Assembly (NCBI RefSeq): GCF_014698755.1 | Contig: NZ_JACJTO010000013.1 | Coordinates: 32,792-96,791, forward strand | Origin: Aphanizomenon flos-aquae FACHB-1287 | GTDB taxonomy: Bacteria; Cyanobacteriota; Cyanobacteriia; Cyanobacteriales; Nostocaceae | DNA: 64,000 bases | Direction of reading: 5' to 3' | Shown here: positions 48,431-64,000 of the stretch, in pieces | Position numbering within the stretch: the first letter of the stretch is position 1 | How the letters are laid out: the number at the start of each line of letters is the position of its first letter | Notes under the pieces: model-generated | What the model saw: the letters and a program-made list of their open reading frames with translations, nothing else | What the model was told of the DNA's origin: nothing | Database searches by the model: none | Translations under genes and position numbers: made by a program

Positions 48431-51400
48431 TTAGTTCCTATTGCCGGTTTCATGTACATTTCGGTTCAAGGTCTCATAAATACTAGATAGTAATTTTTCT
48501 AACACTATTGCTCTAAATTCTTCATTATTCATGACCTCCATAAATATTTTTTCATTCCCGTCCATACGTTCAATAAAGAGGTTTTCTAGATGCTTTTCTA
48601 GTACAGGAGCAAAGTTTTCTTTAGTGTTGACTTGAGCAGCTTTTTTGATAGAATCATTAGCGATCGCTGTTGCAGTAATTTGTTCAAAAAACAGTTGATC
48701 TGCTAAGGTAAAATCTGTACTAAATCTTTCATTTAAAGAATTAATCAGTTGAGATAGAGGAACTTCCTGATCTAGTTGACGAGTTCCCACTGCTGTAGCA
48801 CCTATTAACCCTTCCGCTGTACCTTCCTGTAAATTAATCTTACCTGCGCTGATTTTTTCCAAGCGATAAAATTTTAGTTCGATATCCCCAGATAAATCAA
48901 TTCTGTTTACATCTTTAATTTTAGGTAATTTCTTAACTAAAAATCGTCCATAGGCATAAAGTTTTTCTAATTCTGAATCTTGATAAGGAATAATCTGAGC
49001 TAGGAATAAATAAAGATTACGGAAGCTGGTTAATTGATTTTTAAATTGTTCTTTTTCAGAGTCTATAAGTTGTTGATATTTGTCCACAATTGGATCTAAT
49101 AAACTATTTAATTTTTGATGTTCTTTTCCCGTCAAAGAAGTTTTAGGACGAAACCAAATTTCACACCACTGGTTAACATCTTTTTGGCTAAAAAGTTGCC
49201 ATTCATAAAGTTGATAAGATAAATCATTTAATTGTTGTGGATCTGCATTTTCACCAATAGGAGTTTCCTCATAGTAGGGTTTAAAGGCTTTGTAAATGTC
49301 CTCTGGTTTATTCACAAAATCTAATATAAAGGTGTCGTCTTTCCCTGTGGTGGTGCGATTGAGTCGTGATAAAGTTTGCACTGCTTGGACTCCATCTAGC
49401 CTTTTATCCACAAACATGGTATGTAATAAAGGTTGGTCAAATCCGGTTTGAAATTTGTTAGCAACTAACAAAACTTGATAAGTCTCACTTTCAAATTTTT
49501 CGGGAATTTCTGATGTTTTGATCCCGTTCATATTCTCTTCTGTAAAAGTTTGATCTGGAAATTCATCAAGGTTAATAGAACCAGAAAAAGCTACTAAAGA
49601 TTTGATATCCCTATAACCTTTTTCTTGAATATATTTATCAAAAGCTAATTTATATTTAACAGCGTGTTCACGGGAACGGGTAACAACCATTGCTTTAGCT
49701 CTTCCGCCGATTTTATGGCGGGTATGGTTGCGGAAATGTTCTATAATAATTTCTACTTTTTGAGTGATATTATGAGGGTGCAGTTCAATAAAACGAGCAA
49801 TAGCCTTGGCCGTTTGTCGACGTGGTAAAGTTGGATCATCTTCGGAGGTGCGGACTAATTCAAAATATCGTTCATAGCAGGTATAATTAGCTAAAACGTC
49901 TTTAATATATCCCTCTTCAATGGCTTGACGCATGGTGTAAAGATGAAAGGGAGATTGACCATTTTCTCCCGGTTCATCAAATAGGAGTAAAGTCCTATAT
50001 TTAGGAGTAGCAGTAAAGGCAAAATAACTCAGATTTGGTTGTTTACTGCGGGTAATTTGGTCTTTTAATAGTTGTTGTTTAGCCTCATCACTAATATCCC
50101 CTTCCTCAAATTCATCCTCTAAAAGTTGAGCCGCAATGACAGATTCAATACCATCTTTATTGAGGATTTTTCGCAATTCTGCGGCTGTTTCTCCACTTTG
50201 CGAGCTATGGGCTTCATCAACAATAATGGCAAAGCGTTTATCTTTGGTATTAATATTAATAGTTTTCCCTTTTTTAGCCAAGGTTTCAATAGCTCTAGTA
50301 ATAAAAGGGAATTTCTGAATAGTAGAAATTATAATTGGTACACCATCATTTAAAGCTTTAGCTAGTTGTTGAGTATTTTCATCTATTTTTTGCACAACTC
50401 CCGCTTTATGTTCAAATTGATAAATAGTATTTTGCAGTTGTTGATCTAATACGGTTCTATCTGTAATCACAACAACGGTATGAAATATTTTTTCATTTTG
50501 GTGATCATGAAGATTGGCTAATCGATGTGCTAACCAAGCGATAGAATTAGACTTTCCTGAACCTGCGGAATGTTGGATTAAATAATTATGTCCGGCTTTA
50601 TTTTCTTGACTATGCTTAATAAGTTTACGCACTACATTAAGTTGATGATAACGAGGGAAAATTAGGGTTTCTTTTTTCTGATATTTAATGCCTGTATCTG
50701 TGATAATTTTGATTTCTTTAACGTCAAGATGCAGAAAACGCGCCACTATATCTAATAGGCTATCTTTTTGTAAAACTTCTAGCCACAGATAACTAGTGCG
50801 ATATTCTCCATGATTACCAATGGGATTTCCAGCGCCGTGATTATGTCCTTTATTGAAGGGGAGAAAATAGGTATTTTCTTTAGCTAGTTTAGTCGTCATC
50901 CAAACTTGTTCACTATCTACCGCGAAATGGACTAAGCACCGTTGTTTAAAGGTAAATAGGGGATCTTTGGGGTCTCTGTCGGTTTGATATTGATAAATGG
51001 CTTTTTGGTAGGTTGACCCGGAAAGAGGGTTTTTTAGTTCAATACTGGCTATGGGTAAACCGTTGATACTCAGGAGAATATCAGGAATACCCCCGGTTTT
51101 AATGGTAACTTGGCGGGTAACAGTGAGGTGATTTTTCTGGTACAGTTTCAAGGTTTCCGGGTTCATGGTCGTGTTAGGTTGAAAATAGACTATTTTAAAG
51201 GTTTTACCATAACACTTGAAACCGTGACGGAGGACATCTAATATCCCCCGGCTTTTGAGTTCTTTGGTGAGGCTATCTATGATGATTTTTTCGGATTCAT
51301 TGGCGCTGGCTTTGACTAAATATTTCCATGCTTCTGGTTGAGTTTGTTGGATGAAATTAATGATTTCCGTGGGGAAAAGAGCGGTTTCTGGGTCGTAGTT

Positions 51401-51481
51401 TTTGGCGTTACCTTGTTCGTAGCCACTGAGTTGCAGGAGTTCTTTTTCTATGATGTTTTCAAATTCGTGTTCTGTGTGCAT
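48431..51481 (-). CDS. hsdR: Type I restriction enzyme R subunit
   Basis: Restriction and translocation subunit of 1016 aa. The N-terminal PD-(D/E)XK nuclease shows GGIPDILLSINGLPIASIELK. The SF2 helicase motor has Walker A SAGSGKSNS, DEAH box VDEAHSSQSG, motif III FTATP and the C-terminal VANKFQTGFDQP. The C-terminal helical region would bind the methylase core. It is the last gene of the hsd island; its start is four bases after the vapC stop. The final residues repeat an N-x-H-E-T-G-N-R-N motif, possibly a small duplication. Confidence 0.94.
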   Translation of the reverse strand: MHTEHEFENIIEKELLQLSGYEQGNAKNYDPETALFPTEIINFIQQTQPEAWKYLVKASANESEKIIIDSLTKELKSRGILDVLRHGFKCYGKTFKIVYFQPNTTMNPETLKLYQKNHLTVTRQVTIKTGGIPDILLSINGLPIASIELKNPLSGSTYQKAIYQYQTDRDPKDPLFTFKQRCLVHFAVDSEQVWMTTKLAKENTYFLPFNKGHNHGAGNPIGNHGEYRTSYLWLEVLQKDSLLDIVARFLHLDVKEIKIITDTGIKYQKKETLIFPRYHQLNVVRKLIKHSQENKAGHNYLIQHSAGSGKSNSIAWLAHRLANLHDHQNEKIFHTVVVITDRTVLDQQLQNTIYQFEHKAGVVQKIDENTQQLAKALNDGVPIIISTIQKFPFITRAIETLAKKGKTININTKDKRFAIIVDEAHSSQSGETAAELRKILNKDGIESVIAAQLLEDEFEEGDISDEAKQQLLKDQITRSKQPNLSYFAFTATPKYRTLLLFDEPGENGQSPFHLYTMRQAIEEGYIKDVLANYTCYERYFELVRTSEDDPTLPRRQTAKAIARFIELHPHNITQKVEIIIEHFRNHTRHKIGGRAKAMVVTRSREHAVKYKLAFDKYIQEKGYRDIKSLVAFSGSINLDEFPDQTFTEENMNGIKTSEIPEKFESETYQVLLVANKFQTGFDQPLLHTMFVDKRLDGVQAVQTLSRLNRTTTGKDDTFILDFVNKPEDIYKAFKPYYEETPIGENADPQQLNDLSYQLYEWQLFSQKDVNQWCEIWFRPKTSLTGKEHQKLNSLLDPIVDKYQQLIDSEKEQFKNQLTSFRNLYLFLAQIIPYQDSELEKLYAYGRFLVKKLPKIKDVNRIDLSGDIELKFYRLEKISAGKINLQEGTAEGLIGATAVGTRQLDQEVPLSQLINSLNERFSTDFTLADQLFFEQITATAIANDSIKKAAQVNTKENFAPVLEKHLENLFIERMDGNEKIFMEVMNNEEFRAIVLEKLLSSIYETLNRNVHETGNRN

Positions 51482-51485
51482 TTTA

Positions 51486-51896
51486 TTAATTGGGGTTGAG
51501 CCAGTTTTCTACTTTTAAATTAGGAATGCGAGAAAATTCACGAACATTGGCGGTAACGACAGTTAGATTTAATGTCAACGCATGGACAGCAATTAATAAG
51601 TCATTACTACCAATGGGAGTTCCTTGACGTTCTAAATGTGTACGCATTATAGCATAATTATGATCTACATCTGCCATTAATGGTAATATAGGAATCATGT
51701 TAAAAGCTAGTTCAATTCGTTTTTTTAATCGGAATGAATTGCTTTTTTCTGCGCCAAATCGTAATTCACAAGCTACAATGATACTGGTACAAATTTTTTC
51801 TTCACCCACTTTTTGAATTTGAGAAAAAATTCTCCCTGTTGGGTGTTTGACAAAATCAGAGAGTATATTGGTGTCGAGCAAGTATGAATAAGACAT
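51486..51896 (-). CDS. vapC: VapC-type PIN-domain toxin
   Basis: Putative ribonuclease toxin of 136 aa. PIN-domain acidic residues are visible: Asp8 (LLDTNILSDF), Glu in VACELRFGA, and Asp in GSNDLLIAVHA and VTANVREF. Its partner is the AbrB/VapB-like gene directly upstream, with a two-base gap. The pair is inserted between hsdS and hsdR. VapC toxins usually cut tRNA or rRNA; the target here is unknown. Confidence 0.87.
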   Translation of the reverse strand: MSYSYLLDTNILSDFVKHPTGRIFSQIQKVGEEKICTSIIVACELRFGAEKSNSFRLKKRIELAFNMIPILPLMADVDHNYAIMRTHLERQGTPIGSNDLLIAVHALTLNLTVVTANVREFSRIPNLKVENWLNPN

Positions 51897-51898
51897 TT

Positions 51899-52138
51899 TT
51901 ACAATTCAATATCATCTAAGGGTAATAATCCTTCATCAATATCGGGGAAATCTTCTTCTATGTCATCTAAGGTGGAAAAAGTTTCCAGGAGAGATTTTTT
52001 CTTGTAGGGTTCTATGATGAGTTTTCCGTTATCTTCTCGGATAATTACTTCTGTTGTTGATAGAGTTAATTCTGGAGGGATGGTTAAGGTTTGGGTGTTT
52101 CCTGTTTGAATAAGCTTAATGTGATATTCTGTACTCAT
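51899..52138 (-). CDS. vapB: VapB/AbrB-like antitoxin
   Basis: A 79-aa protein with an N-terminal swapped-hairpin AbrB-like DNA-binding domain (IKLIQTGNTQTLTIPPELTL). Its acidic C-terminus (DDIEEDFPDIDEGLLPLDDIEL) is suited to wrapping the toxin. It is five bases downstream of the hsdS stop, so translation is probably coupled to the RM genes. Confidence 0.85.
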   Translation of the reverse strand: MSTEYHIKLIQTGNTQTLTIPPELTLSTTEVIIREDNGKLIIEPYKKKSLLETFSTLDDIEEDFPDIDEGLLPLDDIEL

Positions 52139-52143
52139 TGTGA

Positions 52144-53514
52144 TTATCCTTTTTGGGGTTGTGGTTTCTGGGGTGAGGGTATAGCAATTTGGCTTACATC
52201 TATTTTACCTGTTACCGCGTTGGTAATTAGGGAGGTGCGATATTCTTTTAATAGTTCTATGGCTTGTTTGATTTTAGCTTTTTGTTGGTCAATTTGGGTT
52301 GTTTTTTGGTCTAAATATTGAGATATTAATTTTTGCTCTTTTATAGGAGGAAGACAGATAATCGTATTACCCAATTCTTCTGCATTCAAATGAGGCTGGG
52401 CTGCTCTACTTTTTGCCAAATATATTTGACCTTCTAAAATATGTTTACTCAATAAATTTAAAGCAATATATTTTGAGTAAGCTTTAGTAGGAGTTAAAAC
52501 CATATCGTAACCAGCAATTGCTCCAGCCCATTCATCTGGTACAATGGCAGAATCTCCTGTATAAGCTCCACTTCTTACAACTAGAATATCACCTACTTTA
52601 AGCTCTGGATTTCTTGACCAAGGAACTTTATCAGGATTTACTCTTTGTACTTTAGAACCATCAATTATTCCTCTATAAATATCTGTTGCTCTAATAATTG
52701 GTAAACCATCATCCAATTGTTCAGGAGGTTCACCCAATCCATATTTAATATCACCAATAAATTTAATTCTTATAGATTTCCAATGTTTCGGAATATCACC
52801 AAGCCACTCAATACCAGAATCTTTTATTGGTACGCTTGAATCTAGTCCTTTAGTGACAGCGTGACTGATAATTGCGGTGCGTTTTTCGTCGAGTTTTTCA
52901 ATGAGGGTTTCTTTCTTTTTGATGAGTTCGTCTATTTGTTTGGTTTTATAGTCGAGAAATTGAGCGATCTTTTCTTGTTCGTCTAGTGGGGGGAAACCTA
53001 AATATAAAACTCCTAAAAATGCGCCTGAAAGCTGTTGTTGTGCTGTCCCATAAGAATAAAAATCTAATTGCTTTGACCATAATAGAGACATCGAAATATA
53101 TTTCAAAAACTCAGCAAATATGTTTATTGGTCTAACAATTATCATTTGTGCATTAATAAATGCTGTTTGATACGGAACATTAGAAAACAACGCTGTTTGT
53201 CCAATAGTTCCACGCATAGTTACAACTAAGTCATTCTTAATTAATTTTCCCCGACTAAGAGATTCAAATTTTTCTAAAGTAATAAATTTTGTTTTTGAAG
53301 AAAAATTGAAAGCATTAGATTTAATATTGTCAGTGCTTAAAAAGGGGATTCCATCATCCTCTAAATCATTCTCATTAGGATAATTTTTTCCTCTGTCTCC
53401 GTCTATTAGTTTTGTTATTTGTTTTAATCGTTTAACTTCCCAATGCTCAGGAATATCACCCAACCACACAACACCAGAATCTTTATACTTTTGATAACCC
53501 TGATAATTACCCAT
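52144..53514 (-). CDS. hsdS: Type I restriction enzyme specificity subunit
   Basis: DNA-recognition subunit of 456 aa. Two target-recognition domains each begin with a GDIPEHW-type segment (WLGDIPEHWEVKRL near 18 and WLGDIPKHWKSIRI near 235). Each is followed by a long coiled-coil spacer ending DEKRTAIISHAVTKGLD or YRTSLITNAVTGKIDV. The two halves suggest a bipartite target that cannot be predicted from sequence. Its start overlaps the DUF3368 stop in TAATG, a coupling signal. Confidence 0.93.
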   Translation of the reverse strand: MGNYQGYQKYKDSGVVWLGDIPEHWEVKRLKQITKLIDGDRGKNYPNENDLEDDGIPFLSTDNIKSNAFNFSSKTKFITLEKFESLSRGKLIKNDLVVTMRGTIGQTALFSNVPYQTAFINAQMIIVRPINIFAEFLKYISMSLLWSKQLDFYSYGTAQQQLSGAFLGVLYLGFPPLDEQEKIAQFLDYKTKQIDELIKKKETLIEKLDEKRTAIISHAVTKGLDSSVPIKDSGIEWLGDIPKHWKSIRIKFIGDIKYGLGEPPEQLDDGLPIIRATDIYRGIIDGSKVQRVNPDKVPWSRNPELKVGDILVVRSGAYTGDSAIVPDEWAGAIAGYDMVLTPTKAYSKYIALNLLSKHILEGQIYLAKSRAAQPHLNAEELGNTIICLPPIKEQKLISQYLDQKTTQIDQQKAKIKQAIELLKEYRTSLITNAVTGKIDVSQIAIPSPQKPQPQKG

Positions 53515-54014
53515 TATTCCCCTTCCTTTTCCTGTGCTAAAAGTAAAATCTTGTCATATAAAAGCGGAGAAATCCAAAAAGTAGAATTTTCAATCAACTT
53601 ATTCATCAAAGGCTTAACAGCCACAACAAAACCCCTTGTTTTCCCTTCTAATAAAACTCCTAATAATCCAGTAATTCTAATTCCTAACCGTTGTGCTTCA
53701 GCCCTTCCCCTGCGTTCATCAATTAATAATAAATCAGTCTTTAACTCCAATGCCAAAATAATAGCCTCCGACTCCCCATTATCTAACTTAGCTTGTTGTT
53801 TTAATTCATATACTTTATTTTTATCTTTCACAGTTTTAACCTCTAAGAAAGGAGATTTTTCTGCTTGTAGTTCACTTAAAAATAGGGGATGACACCTTGA
53901 TAATTCTTCATAAACTGCTTGAGGAATAATCACCTTTTCATAAAGTGCCTGTAACAGAAAAATATGTTCAATACTAATTAAATTAGTAATCACAGAAGTA
54001 TCACTAATAATCAC
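53514..54014 (-). CDS. DUF3368-type PIN-like toxin
   Basis: A 166-aa protein. ISDTSVITNLISI carries the first acidic residue, and LDNGESEAIILALE plus LLLIDERRGRAEAQRLGI complete a PIN-like active site. DUF3368 proteins are regularly paired with UPF0175 antitoxins, exactly as here. The start overlaps the antitoxin stop by four bases. Confidence 0.83.
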   Translation of the reverse strand: MIISDTSVITNLISIEHIFLLQALYEKVIIPQAVYEELSRCHPLFLSELQAEKSPFLEVKTVKDKNKVYELKQQAKLDNGESEAIILALELKTDLLLIDERRGRAEAQRLGIRITGLLGVLLEGKTRGFVVAVKPLMNKLIENSTFWISPLLYDKILLLAQEKEGE

Positions 54015-54265
54015 AATCTTCCCAACTCCTGTAAATTCTGTAAATCAATCTCAAAATCCTCCAAATCATAACGATATAAAGGTATTTTCCGCGCCTTCAG
54101 TAAATCCCGAAAAGCATCAGATTCCATTTGTGCCATTTTAGCTGCATAATCAAAAGTTAATCGCCCCGACTCAAATAAATGTAATGCAATCTCCTGTAAA
54201 AATTCCGTAGGGGTTAACTGGGAAGCGTCTAAAAATTCATCTAAAATTACTAACGACATTACCAA
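54011..54265 (-). CDS. UPF0175-family antitoxin
   Basis: A small protein of 84 aa with a helical, HTH-like organisation: ALHLFESGRLTFDYAAKMAQMESDAFRDLLKARKIPL. That SGRLT...A..M....F...L pattern is typical of UPF0175. The acidic C-terminus would contact the DUF3368 toxin. It overlaps the toxin gene by four bases. Confidence 0.82.
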   Translation of the reverse strand: MVMSLVILDEFLDASQLTPTEFLQEIALHLFESGRLTFDYAAKMAQMESDAFRDLLKARKIPLYRYDLEDFEIDLQNLQELGRL

Positions 54266-54298
54266 AAGCTCCTAACTCTATATTTTTATTTTAGCTGT

Positions 54299-54595
54299 TC
54301 AGATCCCCGACTTCTTCTTAGAAATTCCTAGATCATTTTCCTTAAACTCAATATCAGCACAAGCACCATATAAATTAAGTATCCCCTGAGAATGAAGCAT
54401 ATTTTTTTGCTTTAAAAATTCCTGGAAATCAGTGTCAGAAAAAAAGTTGAGCATATCTTTCATCTCATCAAAATCAATCAAGCCATCTTTAAAAGCATCT
54501 AATACAAGATTAGCCAAGATTTTTTGGGATAAATTACCCCATTAATCAGGTATTTTATCTGTTAAATTATCTGGTAAATCAATTGTAATTTGCAT
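54299..54595 (-). pseudogene. Antitoxin gene with in-frame stop, C-terminus from a repeat
   Basis: From the ATG at 54595 (GGAGG nine bases upstream) the frame reads MQITIDLPDNLTDKIPD, then TAA. It continues in the same frame as WGNLSQKILANLVLDAF to residue 98. MQITIDLPDNL is a typical start of UPF0175 and related antitoxins, and KDGLIDFDEMKDML resembles the UPF0175 helix. The last ten residues (LGISKKKSGI) come from a dispersed hairpin repeat (54300-54335). A TTG at 54517 could restart a 72-aa protein. A premature stop plus repeat insertion suggest a decaying second antitoxin with no adjacent toxin. Confidence 0.65.
54300..54335. repeat. Dispersed hairpin repeat (CCCCGACTTCTT family), copy 1
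   Basis: Contains CCCCGACTTCTTCTTAG and supplies the last codons of the broken antitoxin. Related hairpins occur at 60731-60763 and 61740-61770, built around ACTTCTT/AAGAAGT. This family is common in cyanobacterial spacers. Confidence 0.6.
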
Positions 54596-54635
54596 AATTT
54601 GAAAACCTCCTAACTCTATATTTCTATTTTAGTCC

Positions 54636-56849
54636 TTAAACTACTTCCGCTAACATCGCCATAATATCCGATTCTAAGGCCTTAATATCATCCTCAATTA
54701 CATCCAAACCACGGGGAGGCTGATATACATAAAAATGACGATTTAAGGGAATTTCATAACCTACTTTAGTCTTATCAAAATCAATCCAAGCATCTGGAAC
54801 ATGGGGTAAAACTTCCTTTTTAAAATACTCCTCACAATGCTCTTTTACTAACTTAACTAACTCATTTACACTCCCATCTTTACCATAATCTAAAGGTAAA
54901 GGTAAAGCAATATCATTTGGTAAAGAGACAATTTCCGTATCTCGCAAATTACTATCTGGTTCAGGATTCCCCTTACTATCTCTACAAATTTCCGCTTCTG
55001 GATCTGCTGTTCCCAAAGCTGATAAAATTGCTTTTTTAATAGGTGCTTTTAAATTTAAACCTGCTTTTTTTAAAACCTGATTTAAATCTTTTTCAAACTT
55101 ATCACGGAATAGATAAAGTTTATTTGTATCTATTTTCTGTAAAGCTTCAATAATCTGAGTTTGGAGATTTTCACCCTCTAAAATTTCTAATTGTTGTACC
55201 TTTTCATCTTTCCGCTTTTTAGTAGTAGCTAAATTTTGAAAAGCTGTTTGTTCCCAAAGTAAAGCTAACCGCTCTTTACTAACTTGAAAATTTAATCTTA
55301 ATGGACGTTCTACGGTAATCTTTAAAAAACCAAAATCCCGATTATCAAAGATTTTAGAACAAATCGGCTTTTCTATTTTACCATCATTTTTAATTTCACT
55401 AATACCATTATGTTGAAAATCCCCATACAGTCGCACCAGTTCGGTAATATGTTCAGATGATAATTCATTACGCTTATTACCTAAACTCTTTTTCATTTTT
55501 GAATAATGATGAGTACCATCAATAAGCTGCACTTTCCCCCGACGATTTGACCTTTTTTTATTGGTGACTAACCAAATATAAGTGAAAATTCCCGTATTAT
55601 AAAACATCTGGTCAGGTAAAGCAATTACCGCATCTAACCAATCATTTTCAATTATCCACCGCCGAATATTACTTTCACCGCTTCCTGCGTCTCCTGTGAA
55701 CAATGGAGAACCATTAAATACTATCGCAATTCGTGAACCATCACCGCCATTTTCTGAAGGTTGCATTTTTGAGATCTTGTGTTGAAGAAACAACAATGAA
55801 CCATCATTAATGCGTGGTAAACCTGCGCCAAAACGTCCTTTAAATCCTAAATTTTTATGCTCATCTTCAATAAAATCTTGTTCCGGTTTCCACTCCACAC
55901 CAAAGGGAGGATTAGCCAACATATAATGAAATTTTTTATCAGAATGTCCGTCATGGGGTACGAAATTATTACTTTTATTTTTGGCGTTTTTTACTCCTAA
56001 TGTGTCACCATAAATAATATTGTCTATGGGTTCATCTTTAATCAATAAATCAGAACAACAAATAGCATAGGATTCGGGGTTATATTCTTGCCCAAATAGC
56101 CCTAAATTCGCTTCTGGGTTTTGGTTTTTAATATATTCTTCTGCTACTGATAACATCCCTCCTGTACCGGCTGTGGGGTCATAAACTGAGCGATAAATAC
56201 CTGATTTAAAAACATCGGTTTCTTCACAGAAAACTAAATTTACCATCAAGCGAATTACTTCACGAGGTGTAAAATGATCTCCCGCTTCTTCGTTGGCTTG
56301 TTCATTAAATTTTCTCACCAATTCTTCAAATAGATAACCCATTTGGAGGTTAGAAAGTTTAGAAGGAGATAAATCTATTTCTGGGTTACAAAAATCTTTA
56401 ATAATCAGATATAAGCGATTACTTTCATCAAGTTTTTGAATCTCGCTTTTAAAATCGAACTTTTCAAAAATATCCCTGGCTTTAGGTGAAAAACCATGTA
56501 TATAATCAATTAAATTACTAGCAATATTATCAGCATCATCTAATAATTTTTGAAATGTGAATCGACTGGTGTTATATAAAAATTGTTTACGTTCTCCCCC
56601 AATTGCGACTTTAGAAATAGCTTTTTCAAAGGCCTCACCCTTTAATTTCATGGCTTCATATTTGGCTTTAGCTTCTATCACAGCTTGTTTATTTGGTTCT
56701 AAAACAGCATCTAACCGCCGCAACACAATTAAGGGCAACATCACCCGACGATATTGAGGCGGGCGGTAGGGTCCCCGGAGTTTATCAGCAATAGCCCAAA
56801 TAAAACCAATTAAATCTTGATGATGAGAATTTTCTGTAATTGTTGCCAT
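54636..56849 (-). CDS. hsdM: Type I restriction enzyme M subunit (DNA methyltransferase)
   Basis: N6-adenine methyltransferase of 737 aa. The N-terminal helical HsdM domain (residues 1-130) starts LIGFIWAIADKLRGPYRPPQYRRV. The SAM-binding motif is DPTAGTGGML and the catalytic motif IV is NPPFGVEW. The ATG at 56849 (MATITENSHHQDL) is preferred; an ATG at 56924 would add 25 residues that look non-conserved. It is the first gene of the island and begins 83 bp beyond the panC-cmk stop. The C-terminal 200 residues are longer than in E. coli HsdM, as common in this subgroup. Confidence 0.93.
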   Translation of the reverse strand: MATITENSHHQDLIGFIWAIADKLRGPYRPPQYRRVMLPLIVLRRLDAVLEPNKQAVIEAKAKYEAMKLKGEAFEKAISKVAIGGERKQFLYNTSRFTFQKLLDDADNIASNLIDYIHGFSPKARDIFEKFDFKSEIQKLDESNRLYLIIKDFCNPEIDLSPSKLSNLQMGYLFEELVRKFNEQANEEAGDHFTPREVIRLMVNLVFCEETDVFKSGIYRSVYDPTAGTGGMLSVAEEYIKNQNPEANLGLFGQEYNPESYAICCSDLLIKDEPIDNIIYGDTLGVKNAKNKSNNFVPHDGHSDKKFHYMLANPPFGVEWKPEQDFIEDEHKNLGFKGRFGAGLPRINDGSLLFLQHKISKMQPSENGGDGSRIAIVFNGSPLFTGDAGSGESNIRRWIIENDWLDAVIALPDQMFYNTGIFTYIWLVTNKKRSNRRGKVQLIDGTHHYSKMKKSLGNKRNELSSEHITELVRLYGDFQHNGISEIKNDGKIEKPICSKIFDNRDFGFLKITVERPLRLNFQVSKERLALLWEQTAFQNLATTKKRKDEKVQQLEILEGENLQTQIIEALQKIDTNKLYLFRDKFEKDLNQVLKKAGLNLKAPIKKAILSALGTADPEAEICRDSKGNPEPDSNLRDTEIVSLPNDIALPLPLDYGKDGSVNELVKLVKEHCEEYFKKEVLPHVPDAWIDFDKTKVGYEIPLNRHFYVYQPPRGLDVIEDDIKALESDIMAMLAEVV

Positions 56850-56932
56850 ATTTATGGGATTTGTATTATAGTTACTTTCCCAGTTTTTGATTAAATTTGC
56901 AATGGTGAGTAAATTACCCACCATAATTGTAA

Positions 56933-60774: not shown

Positions 60775-61659
60775 TTATAACTTCTGCAATAATTCCTGAG
60801 TCAACTGGGTAAATGCCTTAGAACCGGCTGTATTTGGATTAAGTAAAGAAACAGGCATAAAACTATCTACAGCTTTAGCAACATTAACATCAATGGGAAT
60901 TTGAGCTTTACAGATTTTATCTACGCCAAAATCTTCGACAACTCGGTGCATTACTTGTTTGTAATATCTGCCATTGAGAAGATTTACATTGGACATACTA
61001 AAAACAATTCCCAGCATTTTAATATCTATTTTCGCTTCTTGTTCATGACCTTCTTTTAATTGGGAAATGCGCCTTTCTAAAAGTTGAATTCCTACCACAG
61101 ATAATGGTTCTGGTCTAGCAGGAAGAATGTAGAAATCGCTTGTAGCTAAAGCACTACGAGTCATAAGATTATAACCGGGAGCGCAATCTAAAAGAATAAA
61201 GTCATATTGATCACGTACGGGTTTTAAAATATCTCTAATTAGGACTCTTTCAAAACGATTCCAGATAGTTTCAAAGTCCTGTTCACCCAATGCTATAGAT
61301 TGATTATGCAGCATTTCAGAAACCACAAATTCATCATATAAATCTATGTCTCCCGGTAATAAATTTAATCCAGGAAGATTACAAACTTGAGGTTGAATAA
61401 TGTCATAAATTGTAAATTTTGCTTCTGGTCTGGGGTTGATAAGTTGATCTAGTAAATATCTCAATGTCTTTTTTTGTTTACGACGTTTAGTAAAATCTAG
61501 TGGTGACATTAAACTCAGTGTCGCACTAATTTGACTATCTAAATCTAAAACCAAGACCTTTTTTCCGTGATTTTTGGCTAAACAAGTGGCCATATTCACG
61601 GTAATGGTGGTTTTACCGACTCCACCTTTCATGTTTGCGGTTGCAATTACATATCCCAT
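60775..61659 (-). CDS. ParA/MinD-like ATPase
   Basis: Deviant Walker A ATPase of 294 aa. The motif KGGVGKTT (12-19) with the signature Lys, LDLDSQISATLSL (Walker A') and FILLDCAPGYNLM (Walker B) place it in the ParA/Soj group. No N-terminal helix-turn-helix domain is present, so it is the short type that acts with a separate partner. No parB or obvious parS is in the window. The gene directly upstream encodes the nuclease-FtsK fusion, so the two may be one module, although a hairpin separates them. Chromosome or plasmid partition is the generic alternative. Confidence 0.88.
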   Translation of the reverse strand: MGYVIATANMKGGVGKTTITVNMATCLAKNHGKKVLVLDLDSQISATLSLMSPLDFTKRRKQKKTLRYLLDQLINPRPEAKFTIYDIIQPQVCNLPGLNLLPGDIDLYDEFVVSEMLHNQSIALGEQDFETIWNRFERVLIRDILKPVRDQYDFILLDCAPGYNLMTRSALATSDFYILPARPEPLSVVGIQLLERRISQLKEGHEQEAKIDIKMLGIVFSMSNVNLLNGRYYKQVMHRVVEDFGVDKICKAQIPIDVNVAKAVDSFMPVSLLNPNTAGSKAFTQLTQELLQKL

Positions 61660-61739
61660 TTTTATTCCTCTACTGACGCTTTCCCATTAAGGTAGCGTTC
61701 ATATTATCTAATAGATTTTAACTTTGGTGATGGTACTCA

Positions 61740-61770
61740 AACCCCAAACTTCTCCAAGAAATCGGGGGTC
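61740..61770 (-). repeat. Hairpin repeat between the nuclease-FtsK and ParA-like genes, copy 3
   Basis: ACCCCAAACTTCT and AGAAATCGGGGGT form an imperfect stem around CCAA, only a few bases past the stop of the fusion gene. It may attenuate transcription into the ParA-like gene. Confidence 0.55.
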
Positions 61771-61773
61771 TTG

Positions 61774-63858
61774 TTAGGATAGTTTAATATTTTGTGCCAA
61801 TAAACTCTGAAGACGTTGTAAATGCGGACCAACTTGGTAAACTAAATCCCCTTTTCCTATTAAATAAGCTGCTACGGTTGATGTTCCACCTAAGATGATT
61901 TTTGAATCTGCTTCGCTTTTGGTACTGAGTGCGACCCTTCCAGGTAGGTTAGTACGAATAATTGGGGTGACAATACTCGCTTCTGGACGTTGGGTAGAAA
62001 TAATCAAATGAATACCTGCGGCTCTTGCCATCGCGCCTAAACGTTTGATACTTTGTTCTAAGATGTTGCGGACCTCTTTCTCTGCCATAAAATCGGCATA
62101 TTCATCAAAAATACAAACAATGCGCGGTAACATTGGGGAGGAACGTTGATTATAAACTGTTAAATCTGCACATTTAGCTTTTTCAAATTTTTGATAACGA
62201 GATTCCATTTCTGCTACTAGTTCTTGCATTAATTCTACAGCGCGATCGCTATCTTTGACAACTGGTGCATATAACGACGACATTTGTTCAAATTCGGGAA
62301 ATGTTACCCGCTTAGGATCAACTAAAGCAATTTTTAAATGTTGGGGAGAATGACGATAGATTAAACTGAGAAGAAGCGATCGCAAAAATTCACTTTTTCC
62401 GCTTCCTGTTGTTCCTCCCACCAAAAAATGACAGGTATTTGGATCTGATAAATCAGCCTCTAACAATTTACCATCAATACTCACCCCAATGGCAATTTTT
62501 ACGGGTGCTGTTGGGGGTAAAAATTGCTTTTGAATAAAATCTTCAAATTTAGCAATTTGTCTATCTTGACGCGGTAAATCAATACTTACATAACCAGCTT
62601 GAGGTGCAATTAAAGGCGGATATTCTAACCCCAATTGTACTTGTAAATCAGCGGATAATTTGAGAATTGAATTTACTTTTACACCCGAATTTGGTTTAAG
62701 TTTGACTCTGATAAATGCTGGACTTACCGCAGCACCATGATACTCAACACCAATACCAAAAGATTGCAAAGTATTAACTAAATCTTCTCCTATTTTATCA
62801 GCATTAATAGATGTATCCTTCTGACTTTTAAAAGTATTTGAAAAACCTCTCTCCAAACCTCTCTCCTTGCAGGAGAGAGGCTTTAAATTCTCCCCCTTCC
62901 CTGGTAGGGAAGGGGGTTGGGGGGTTAGGTTTCCTGTTGAGTTTTCCAAATTTTGATCATGATTAGATTCAACATCAAAAAAAGTCTGACACTTTTGTTG
63001 TTGGGGACAAATTTCACATAAATAAGGTTCAGTTGTCATTGGTGGTGGGTTAGGATTGGGAGATTCCCAACTTAACCATTCTTGCATTTGTAATAATTTA
63101 TAGGGAATTAATTGATGAACCGTATTTTCTAACTGTTCCCAAGAATATTTGTACTCTTTAAATTCTGGTAAAACACAATAAACAGCAGAATCAACAGGTG
63201 TTTTTTTCTGCTTCGATAACATATAACTATAGAGAGAGACTTGCGCTAATTGTGCTGCTGAATCTACAGGTTGATAGGTTTTAAATTCTACCATAAAAAG
63301 GCGTTTCAGTTCAAAATTAAAAACCAGACAATCAAACTCACCTCTGATTAATTGTTTTGTGCCATTAGGTAAATCAAAGTAATATTCTAAATTGTGTTCT
63401 CCAGAAATAAAAGTATTCTGAATAACTGTTTCCGCACTGCAATAACGACGATTGATGATCAACAATTCAGTAAACTTTTTAATTAATCCTTGTAAACCTT
63501 GCCAAACCTGTAGCAGTAAAGAGGCTTGACTCGCGTCTTTTGCAATTGCATTTTGCAAATAGGGAAAGAACTTAATTTGATAGAATAATTGTTGAATTTC
63601 CGATGTAATTACATCTACCTTTAATTGTGTTGCAGATGGATTAAATAAACTTTTAAATCTGGGTTCAATCAGCAGTAAATTAATAAAATCATCTGCTAAT
63701 TTATGAAAAACATTACCAACACCCCCAAGAGTATCTTTAGGAGAGAATATTGCTTTACAATTAAAATGGTGATTGAGATAAAATAGTCGAGGACATTCAA
63801 AAGCTAATCTAACTTTAGTGGGAGTTAAAGATGAATTTTCAGATTTGTGATTTACCAT
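61774..63858 (-). CDS. Cas4/AddB-type Fe-S nuclease fused to FtsK/HerA-type DNA translocase
   Basis: A 694-aa fusion. Residues 1-295 form a RecB/Cas4-type PD-(D/E)XK nuclease: His52 (GNVFH), Asp176, Glu191-x-Lys193 (MVEFKTY) and Gln206/Tyr210. Cys22 plus Cys281-x2-Cys284-x5-Cys290 match the four-cysteine Fe-S site of Cas4 and AddB. Residues 340-694 are an FtsK/SpoIIIE-like motor with Walker A GGTTGSGKSE (Lys488), ALVDPKRVTFPEF and Walker B CIFDEYADFM. It has no membrane segments and no gamma domain, so it is not the cell-division FtsK. The linker (about 309-341) derives from an inserted palindromic repeat. It probably processes DNA ends or foreign DNA while translocating. Confidence 0.85.
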   Translation of the reverse strand: MVNHKSENSSLTPTKVRLAFECPRLFYLNHHFNCKAIFSPKDTLGGVGNVFHKLADDFINLLLIEPRFKSLFNPSATQLKVDVITSEIQQLFYQIKFFPYLQNAIAKDASQASLLLQVWQGLQGLIKKFTELLIINRRYCSAETVIQNTFISGEHNLEYYFDLPNGTKQLIRGEFDCLVFNFELKRLFMVEFKTYQPVDSAAQLAQVSLYSYMLSKQKKTPVDSAVYCVLPEFKEYKYSWEQLENTVHQLIPYKLLQMQEWLSWESPNPNPPPMTTEPYLCEICPQQQKCQTFFDVESNHDQNLENSTGNLTPQPPSLPGKGENLKPLSCKERGLERGFSNTFKSQKDTSINADKIGEDLVNTLQSFGIGVEYHGAAVSPAFIRVKLKPNSGVKVNSILKLSADLQVQLGLEYPPLIAPQAGYVSIDLPRQDRQIAKFEDFIQKQFLPPTAPVKIAIGVSIDGKLLEADLSDPNTCHFLVGGTTGSGKSEFLRSLLLSLIYRHSPQHLKIALVDPKRVTFPEFEQMSSLYAPVVKDSDRAVELMQELVAEMESRYQKFEKAKCADLTVYNQRSSPMLPRIVCIFDEYADFMAEKEVRNILEQSIKRLGAMARAAGIHLIISTQRPEASIVTPIIRTNLPGRVALSTKSEADSKIILGGTSTVAAYLIGKGDLVYQVGPHLQRLQSLLAQNIKLS
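62841..62933. repeat. Palindromic repeat inserted in frame in a coding gene
   Basis: Two perfect hairpins in tandem. CCTCTCTCCT (62858-62867) pairs with AGGAGAGAGG (62871-62880). CCCCCTTCCCT (62892-62902) pairs with AGGGAAGGGGG (62906-62916). The element is GC-rich against an AT-rich gene. It is translated as TPQPPSLPGKGE...SCKERGLERGF between the nuclease and motor domains. It resembles repeats normally found between cyanobacterial genes. Confidence 0.8.
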
Positions 63859-64000
63859 ATTAAATACACGATTGATAACATCAGGATCAGAAATGTTGAA
63901 TGTCGTTACAAAACTTTACATATTTAAGTATACTAGTATTATCAAGGGTAAAAATGTCAACATTTCATAATATCTTCCATCCAATGAACATAACTGATTT
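63859..64000. other. Upstream region of the nuclease-FtsK gene
   Basis: AT-rich, truncated by the window end. It should include the promoter of the fusion gene. No further feature. Confidence 0.4.

Follow-up and report, generated by a model that had tools for sequence, protein, structure and literature searches.

What kind of system is encoded at the end of the window, the 64,000-nucleotide stretch of Aphanizomenon flos-aquae FACHB-1287 DNA analysed here, where an open reading frame (ORF) joins a Cas4/AddB-like nuclease to an FtsK-type motor and is followed by a gene for a ParA-like ATPase? The original prediction took the fusion and the ATPase to suggest a motor-coupled end-processing or plasmid/phage-control module. 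A control role is still the best guess from our comparisons, but the members of the system differ. Judged by its homologues, the window ORF covers just the nuclease and the motor of a longer gene (hereafter C), which in relatives encodes a 3'-5' exonuclease, a predicted iron-sulphur (Fe-S) nuclease and an FtsK motor in one protein. Intact C, together with a predicted winged-helix protein (A) and an Orc/Cdc6-like ATPase (B), is likely to act in defence against foreign DNA, and in this strain C was probably split by a multicopy element. The window runs to the end of contig C5 of the strain's genome (G000), and the exonuclease half lies on contig C28.

The fusion of nuclease and motor proved to be real. 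PDDEXK_1 (E 2.7e-11), FtsK_alpha (E 3.6e-9) and FtsK_SpoIIIE (E 3e-40) all passed the Pfam cut-offs in the window ORF. The catalytic and cysteine residues named in the original prediction were then followed through an alignment of 54 nuclease-motor ORFs and the homologue P0005 (n = 55; P0005 number = window number + 188), and each was kept in 53 to 55 of the proteins. Cys22 was present in 54 (one gap) and Cys281, Cys284 and Cys290 in all 55, while His52 was found in 53, Asp176 in 54, Glu191 in 53 (Asp in the other two), Lys193 in 54 and Gln206 in 55. The Walker A and B residues were conserved over the same alignment, and other Nostocales have kept the fusion as well. Between nuclease and motor, the window ORF has an in-frame palindrome folding into two hairpins (about -50 kcal/mol), which is absent from P0005, P0013 and P0115; no second copy of its core was found within the window.

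The domain order read from the window, nuclease followed by FtsK, was confirmed but is incomplete. Among 5.8 billion proteins, 1128 homologues were found, and all 120 of those listed were 790-909 aa long with an N-terminal PF01612 exonuclease domain (E 4e-27 in P0005), so that the intact form is exonuclease-nuclease-FtsK. The ATG at 63858 corresponds to an internal Met of these longer homologues. In the strain, residues 1-182 of the gene, which make up the exonuclease domain, lie at 46530-47075 of C28 in a 208-aa ORF that reads on into the element. When the C28 and C5 flanks were joined, the product aligned without gaps to all 10 relatives examined. The solved relatives of the exonuclease domain are of the diDNase/NrnC, RNase D and Rrp6 types. 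Its D-x-E motif, exo II Asp and Y-x3-D motif were invariant where covered (gaps in at most 3 of 47 sequences), and the exo II Asn was replaced by Ser in two. A separate, widespread cyanobacterial exonuclease family with ORFs of about 305-335 aa is about 50% identical to this domain (match to residues 1-180) and is a possible source of it.

Full-length ORFs for B, a 670-aa P-loop NTPase, and A (278-294 aa) are located on C28 upstream of the exonuclease half. Hence the real partners of the window gene lay outside the window. Among 291 cyanobacterial genomes, C was detected in 27, B in 33 and A in 34, and both A and B were present in all 27 genomes with C. Here C-positive means a match across both nuclease and motor, which excludes motor-only genomes (e.g. 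G024, G040, G085 and G276) and the exonuclease-only genomes G193 and G245. B was scored at E < 1e-90, a cut chosen after the gap down to 1e-12 had been seen, by which the 8 weaker of 41 genomes were dropped; A was scored at E <= 0.001, and 2 of its 34 genomes are weak (G164, G209). In G046, G095 and G227, A and B are separate from C and were all retained.

Gene order was examined in named loci taken from the best 80 of at least 596 stretches, of which L047-L076 (n = 30) were analysed and L077-L126 match the motor region. In L047-L070, B and C were adjacent in 24 of 24 loci, and A, B and C lay in this order on one strand in 22; A was not found in L065 and is on the opposite strand in L066. Broken ORFs were observed in L068 and L070. 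Outside cyanobacteria, a B-like ORF overlaps the nuclease-motor ORF in Polyangium (L075) and in a myxobacterium (L076), and in Thalassoglobus neptunius (L074, 3291-7111) an A-like gene precedes a single protein of B-type ATPase, FtsK alpha and FtsK domains without a nuclease. Extra copies of B stand in tandem in L057 (253-2388), L069 (433-4650), L127 and L129; in the last two, A is beside the tandem B and the locus has no nuclease-motor gene.

The composition of C also varies. An exonuclease match was obtained in 42 of the 54 nuclease-motor ORFs, including L028, where only the start and end of the domain are kept; the 12 ORFs without a match include the window ORF and one fragment. Because exonuclease-less C occurs beside A and B (L046, L064 and G153, locus L035), the exonuclease is probably an accessory part. 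Genome G125 (L134, 13508-16873) has a protein kinase domain between the exonuclease and the nuclease of the fused protein, and in it a single additional gene (DUF29) separates B from C. Its fused nuclease has lost the His, Asp and Lys residues and kept the four Cys, while its operon opens with a stand-alone 287-aa nuclease (L134, 8925-9788) bearing the full residue set, with one Glu changed to Asp. Such a pairing of a degenerate fused nuclease with a stand-alone copy is new, and in our reading it suggests that nuclease activity is needed and that the fused copy may have turned structural.

The original prediction was aware of no described system with this domain order. The kind has in fact been described, exonuclease fusion included, by Rakesh, Aravind and Krishnan (NAR 2024, PMC10853773), as operons of an Orc/CDC6 ATPase, a restriction endonuclease (REase) and a HerA/FtsK motor, termed 'HerA/FtsK capture'. 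The class is a predicted one, with one set having FtsK alpha, with winged helix-turn-helix (wHTH) proteins, including a fast-evolving DndG-like protein of 2-4 wHTH in a subset, and in some cases with a motor that carries a fused 3'-5' exonuclease; such systems are proposed to intercept the DNA of invaders and cleave it. Because the A-B-C set fits this description, we assign the window gene to the class. A gene for an Orc/CDC6-family AAA+ ATPase (B) is coupled to a HerA/FtsK gene, the nuclease is predicted to be of the REase fold (PF12705, with the H/D/E/K/Q residues in 53-55 of 55), the motor passes the cut-offs of both PF01580 and PF17854, and a 3'-5' exonuclease is fused to it, although severed in this strain. 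The published features include an inactive REase between the AAA+ part and the C-terminal wHTH of the ATPase; the model of B shows a region of alpha/beta structure at about 425-620 and, at 636-704, a helical one that includes two strands, and the fold search barely covered the end of this model. The main text of PMC10853773 contains no word starting with 'cyanobacteri' and neither ParA nor MinD as a whole word, and its sections 22 and 26 are silent on a four-Cys nuclease, which C has. The phrase 'FtsK capture' occurred in this paper alone in the literature searched.

Other known systems share parts with C and its partners. Similar to DndFGH/SspFGH, the set includes a winged-helix protein and an ATPase, and SspH ends in a motor to which that of C is related (PADLOC E 6.7e-66). 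However, C typically has about 850 aa, its match to SspH is confined to 1362-1740 of 1766, B belongs to the Orc/Cdc6 class, and DndH is a protein of about 1700 aa with an eight-domain core, whereas the listed C homologues have 790-909 aa. No Dnd or Ssp modification genes were noted in the listed loci, where no search was aimed at them. As in NurA-HerA, a nuclease is coupled to a HerA/FtsK ring motor; in C, however, the nuclease is a fused PDDEXK_1 domain with the Cys set and the motor has an FtsK alpha domain, no NurA was among the listed Pfam hits, and the HerA model DUF87 stayed under its cut-off. The Fe-S nucleases of AddB and Cas4 have one N-terminal and three C-terminal Cys, and C has the same pattern on the common PD-(D/E)XK core. 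C differs in having no helicase domain, and its score with the Cas4 equivalog TIGR00372 was 18.5 bits against a cut-off of 65. None of the known PADLOC systems fits A, B and C as a set.

What, then, would such a set do? The sequences show a three-domain protein with conserved active-site and Cys residues, the A-B-C order, the co-occurrence of A and B with C, and the element ends with their repeat. A defence role is predicted because of the patchy distribution of C, its decay, the tandem B copies, its replacement at one site and the nearby type I restriction-modification operon. In this role, A and B would be the parts that recognise, or load onto, DNA that is invading or replicating. The FtsK ring, as expected from its family, would pump that DNA, the Cas4/AddB-like predicted Fe-S nuclease may cut or resect it, and the exonuclease may trim 3' ends, the last two steps being suggested by conserved residues.

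Two rival roles have observations in their favour. FtsK itself gives the best solved matches to the motor, which also has an FtsK alpha domain, and in 13 of the 27 genomes with C a ParA gene is found at most 3 kb away from it; both would suit a chromosome-maintenance helper, in which, in some cyanobacteria, the exonuclease-nuclease-FtsK protein and the Orc/Cdc6-like ATPase process chromosome ends, dimers or stalled forks and not invaders. We consider such a helper unlikely, since C occurs in only 27 of 291 genomes and is decayed or replaced within genera, and since ParA does not track C in the window's family. Meanwhile, Pseudanabaena sp. PCC 7367 has an exonuclease-less A-B-C set on a conjugative plasmid, where an IS21 pair lies about 5 kb upstream of the set, and PMC10853773 calls such neighbourhoods mobile, as would be expected of a module that maintains or transfers an integrated mobile element and uses the motor for that element's own DNA. 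This explanation is rather improbable in view of the viral searches: a single IMG/VR pattern scan returned no relative, and in tblastn no phage record covered 80% of C, the 20 listed of 199 matching residues 465-845 only. Defence against foreign DNA is retained as the predicted role of intact C.

The split of C in the strain was traced to the contig ends. Both contigs stop within a repeat, C28 after 112 bases of it and C5 after 113; the inverted ends of this repeat read CAGAA(G/A)TGTTGAATGT, and the gene-side flanks at both breaks share the 9-base direct repeat ATCCTGATG. The last 113 bases of the window thus belong to the repeat and not to the gene; C11 carries a 630-base copy, one end of which is identical to them at 113/113 positions, whereas the C28 end matches the other end of that copy initially and diverges after (67/112, ungapped). 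Another short copy, on C15, has 542 bases. The C11 copy bears what we read as possible transposase-like coding pieces. Genome-wide, the element end gave 86 matches at no more than one mismatch, many of them near contig ends, while a reversed control gave none. Since the two contigs terminate in this element, with its ends inverted and the 9-base repeat at each break, the gene was probably split by an insertion, which is inferred, as no contig spans the site. That absence, and the many contigs of this genome that stop in the same repeat, would also fit an assembly artefact or a minority allele with the gene intact in most cells, but this is very unlikely, as the inverted ends and the shared direct repeat are what a real insertion predicts. 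Because the A and B ORFs are full-length in the strain, its system may be either newly broken or working as an exonuclease-less split form. The features of the window are collected in Table 1.

Table 1. Features of the C locus and its surroundings in the window
Feature	Position	Strand	Evidence
Nuclease and FtsK part of gene C (probably interrupted), ORF of 694 aa	61774..63858	-	Pfam and homologue comparison
PD-(D/E)XK nuclease domain, Cas4/AddB type, four conserved Cys, residues 11-291	62986..63828	-	PF12705
Palindromic in-frame linker insert, residues 309-343, two hairpins	62830..62934	-	Comparison with relatives, folding
FtsK alpha domain, residues 345-429	62572..62826	-	PF17854
FtsK/SpoIIIE motor domain, residues 444-625	61984..62529	-	PF01580, Walker A/B conserved
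9-base direct repeat ATCCTGATG, second copy at the C28 break	63879..63887	-	Flank comparison
End of the multicopy element (probable insertion), inverted end CAGAAATGTTGAATGT; contig C5 stops here	63888..64000	.	113/113 identical to C11 copy
ParA-like ATPase, 294 aa; gene of the chromosomal site, no specific partner	60775..61659	-	AAA_31, genome survey

Elsewhere in the window, the type I restriction-modification genes HsdR, HsdS and HsdM occupy 48431-56924 on the minus strand, and a pair of DUF3368 (toxin-like) and UPF0175 (antitoxin-like) genes sits between HsdS and HsdM.

The ParA-like ATPase (AAA_31, E 1.4e-36) does follow the nuclease-motor ORF 114 bases downstream on the same strand, as the original prediction stated. 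The proposed module depended on ParA being a conserved neighbour, and this did not hold. Scored at E <= 1e-40, the 294-aa ParA was present in 78 of 291 genomes. In the 27 genomes with C, it was found elsewhere in 11 and not found in 3 besides those within 3 kb; in the window's family (32 genomes), it was present in 14 of 15 genomes with C and in 17 of 17 without. Because it occurs in 31 of these 32 genomes, whether or not they have the system, ParA is no specific partner; it marks the chromosomal site. ParA and C do co-occur over the whole sample (24/27 versus 54/264, p 1.5e-12), which we attribute to both being largely confined to the same order. ParA as a partner was thus rejected across the 291 genomes; a partition-coupled system of nuclease-motor and ParA, which the shared strand and close spacing in the window and a gap of no more than about 0.6 kb in 11 of the 27 genomes with C might suggest, is largely refuted and highly improbable given the 17 family genomes with ParA but no C and the 14 of 27 genomes in which it lies elsewhere or was not found.

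A second cassette was found at this site. It encodes a 457-aa REase-ParA protein, in which an N-terminal HSDR_N-like domain (weak in Pfam, E 1.4e-4, below the cut-off) is fused to ParA; D46 was kept in 13 and E70-x-K72 in 14 of 14 aligned proteins. At E <= 1e-60, REase-ParA, with a ParB_N-like partner, was detected in 43 of 291 genomes. The named loci are L131 (6746-8119 and 8122-8859), L130, L132, L136, L155-L159, L163, L164, L072 and L057, and the ParB_N-like protein adjoins REase-ParA in most of them; the position is often the one that the FtsK system occupies in relatives. In the window's family, REase-ParA was present in 14 of 17 genomes without C and in 0 of 15 with C (p 1.5e-6, shared ancestry ignored), so none of the 32 held both at the cut used. 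In 9 of the 14 genomes, no more than 2 kb separated it from the 294-aa ParA described above. Remnants of C persist at cassette sites, namely a motor piece in G024, G040 and Scytonema L072 and the exonuclease domain in G193 and G245; in G193, A and B also remain beside REase-ParA/ParB. Genera g1, g6 and g13 each hold both states. It is a new observation that, within the window's family, the REase-ParA/ParB cassette often occupies the same site in place of the C system.

The exchange has exceptions outside the family. In genome G115, C occurs together with a match to the ParA part (E 1.6e-84); at locus L057, A-B-C is accompanied by a close REase-ParA (E 2e-166), and at L052 and L056 by divergent ones (E 1e-45 and 2e-44). 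G068, without C, has a divergent REase-ParA (E 4e-43) below the cut. Exclusion over the whole phylum was not significant (1/27 versus 42/264, p 0.15). It is a tentative and rather doubtful idea that the two nuclease-DNA-motor cassettes, exonuclease-nuclease-FtsK with A and B and REase-ParA with the ParB-like protein, compete for one Nostocaceae-like chromosomal slot, and that ParA/ParB was 'captured' for defence in the manner of FtsK, acting alongside the FtsK effector of the same Orc/Cdc6 and winged-helix sensor or in its place, with G193 as an example.

With these loci, the predicted Orc/CDC6-FtsK defence class gains well-populated cyanobacterial examples, including named loci with three open ORFs (e.g. 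L048, Nostoc carneum NIES-2107). Among the examples are natural exonuclease-less forms, a degenerate fused nuclease with a stand-alone copy, and a site of replacement by REase-ParA/ParB. Should defence be shown, DNA-segregation motors would here be coupled to the destruction of DNA.

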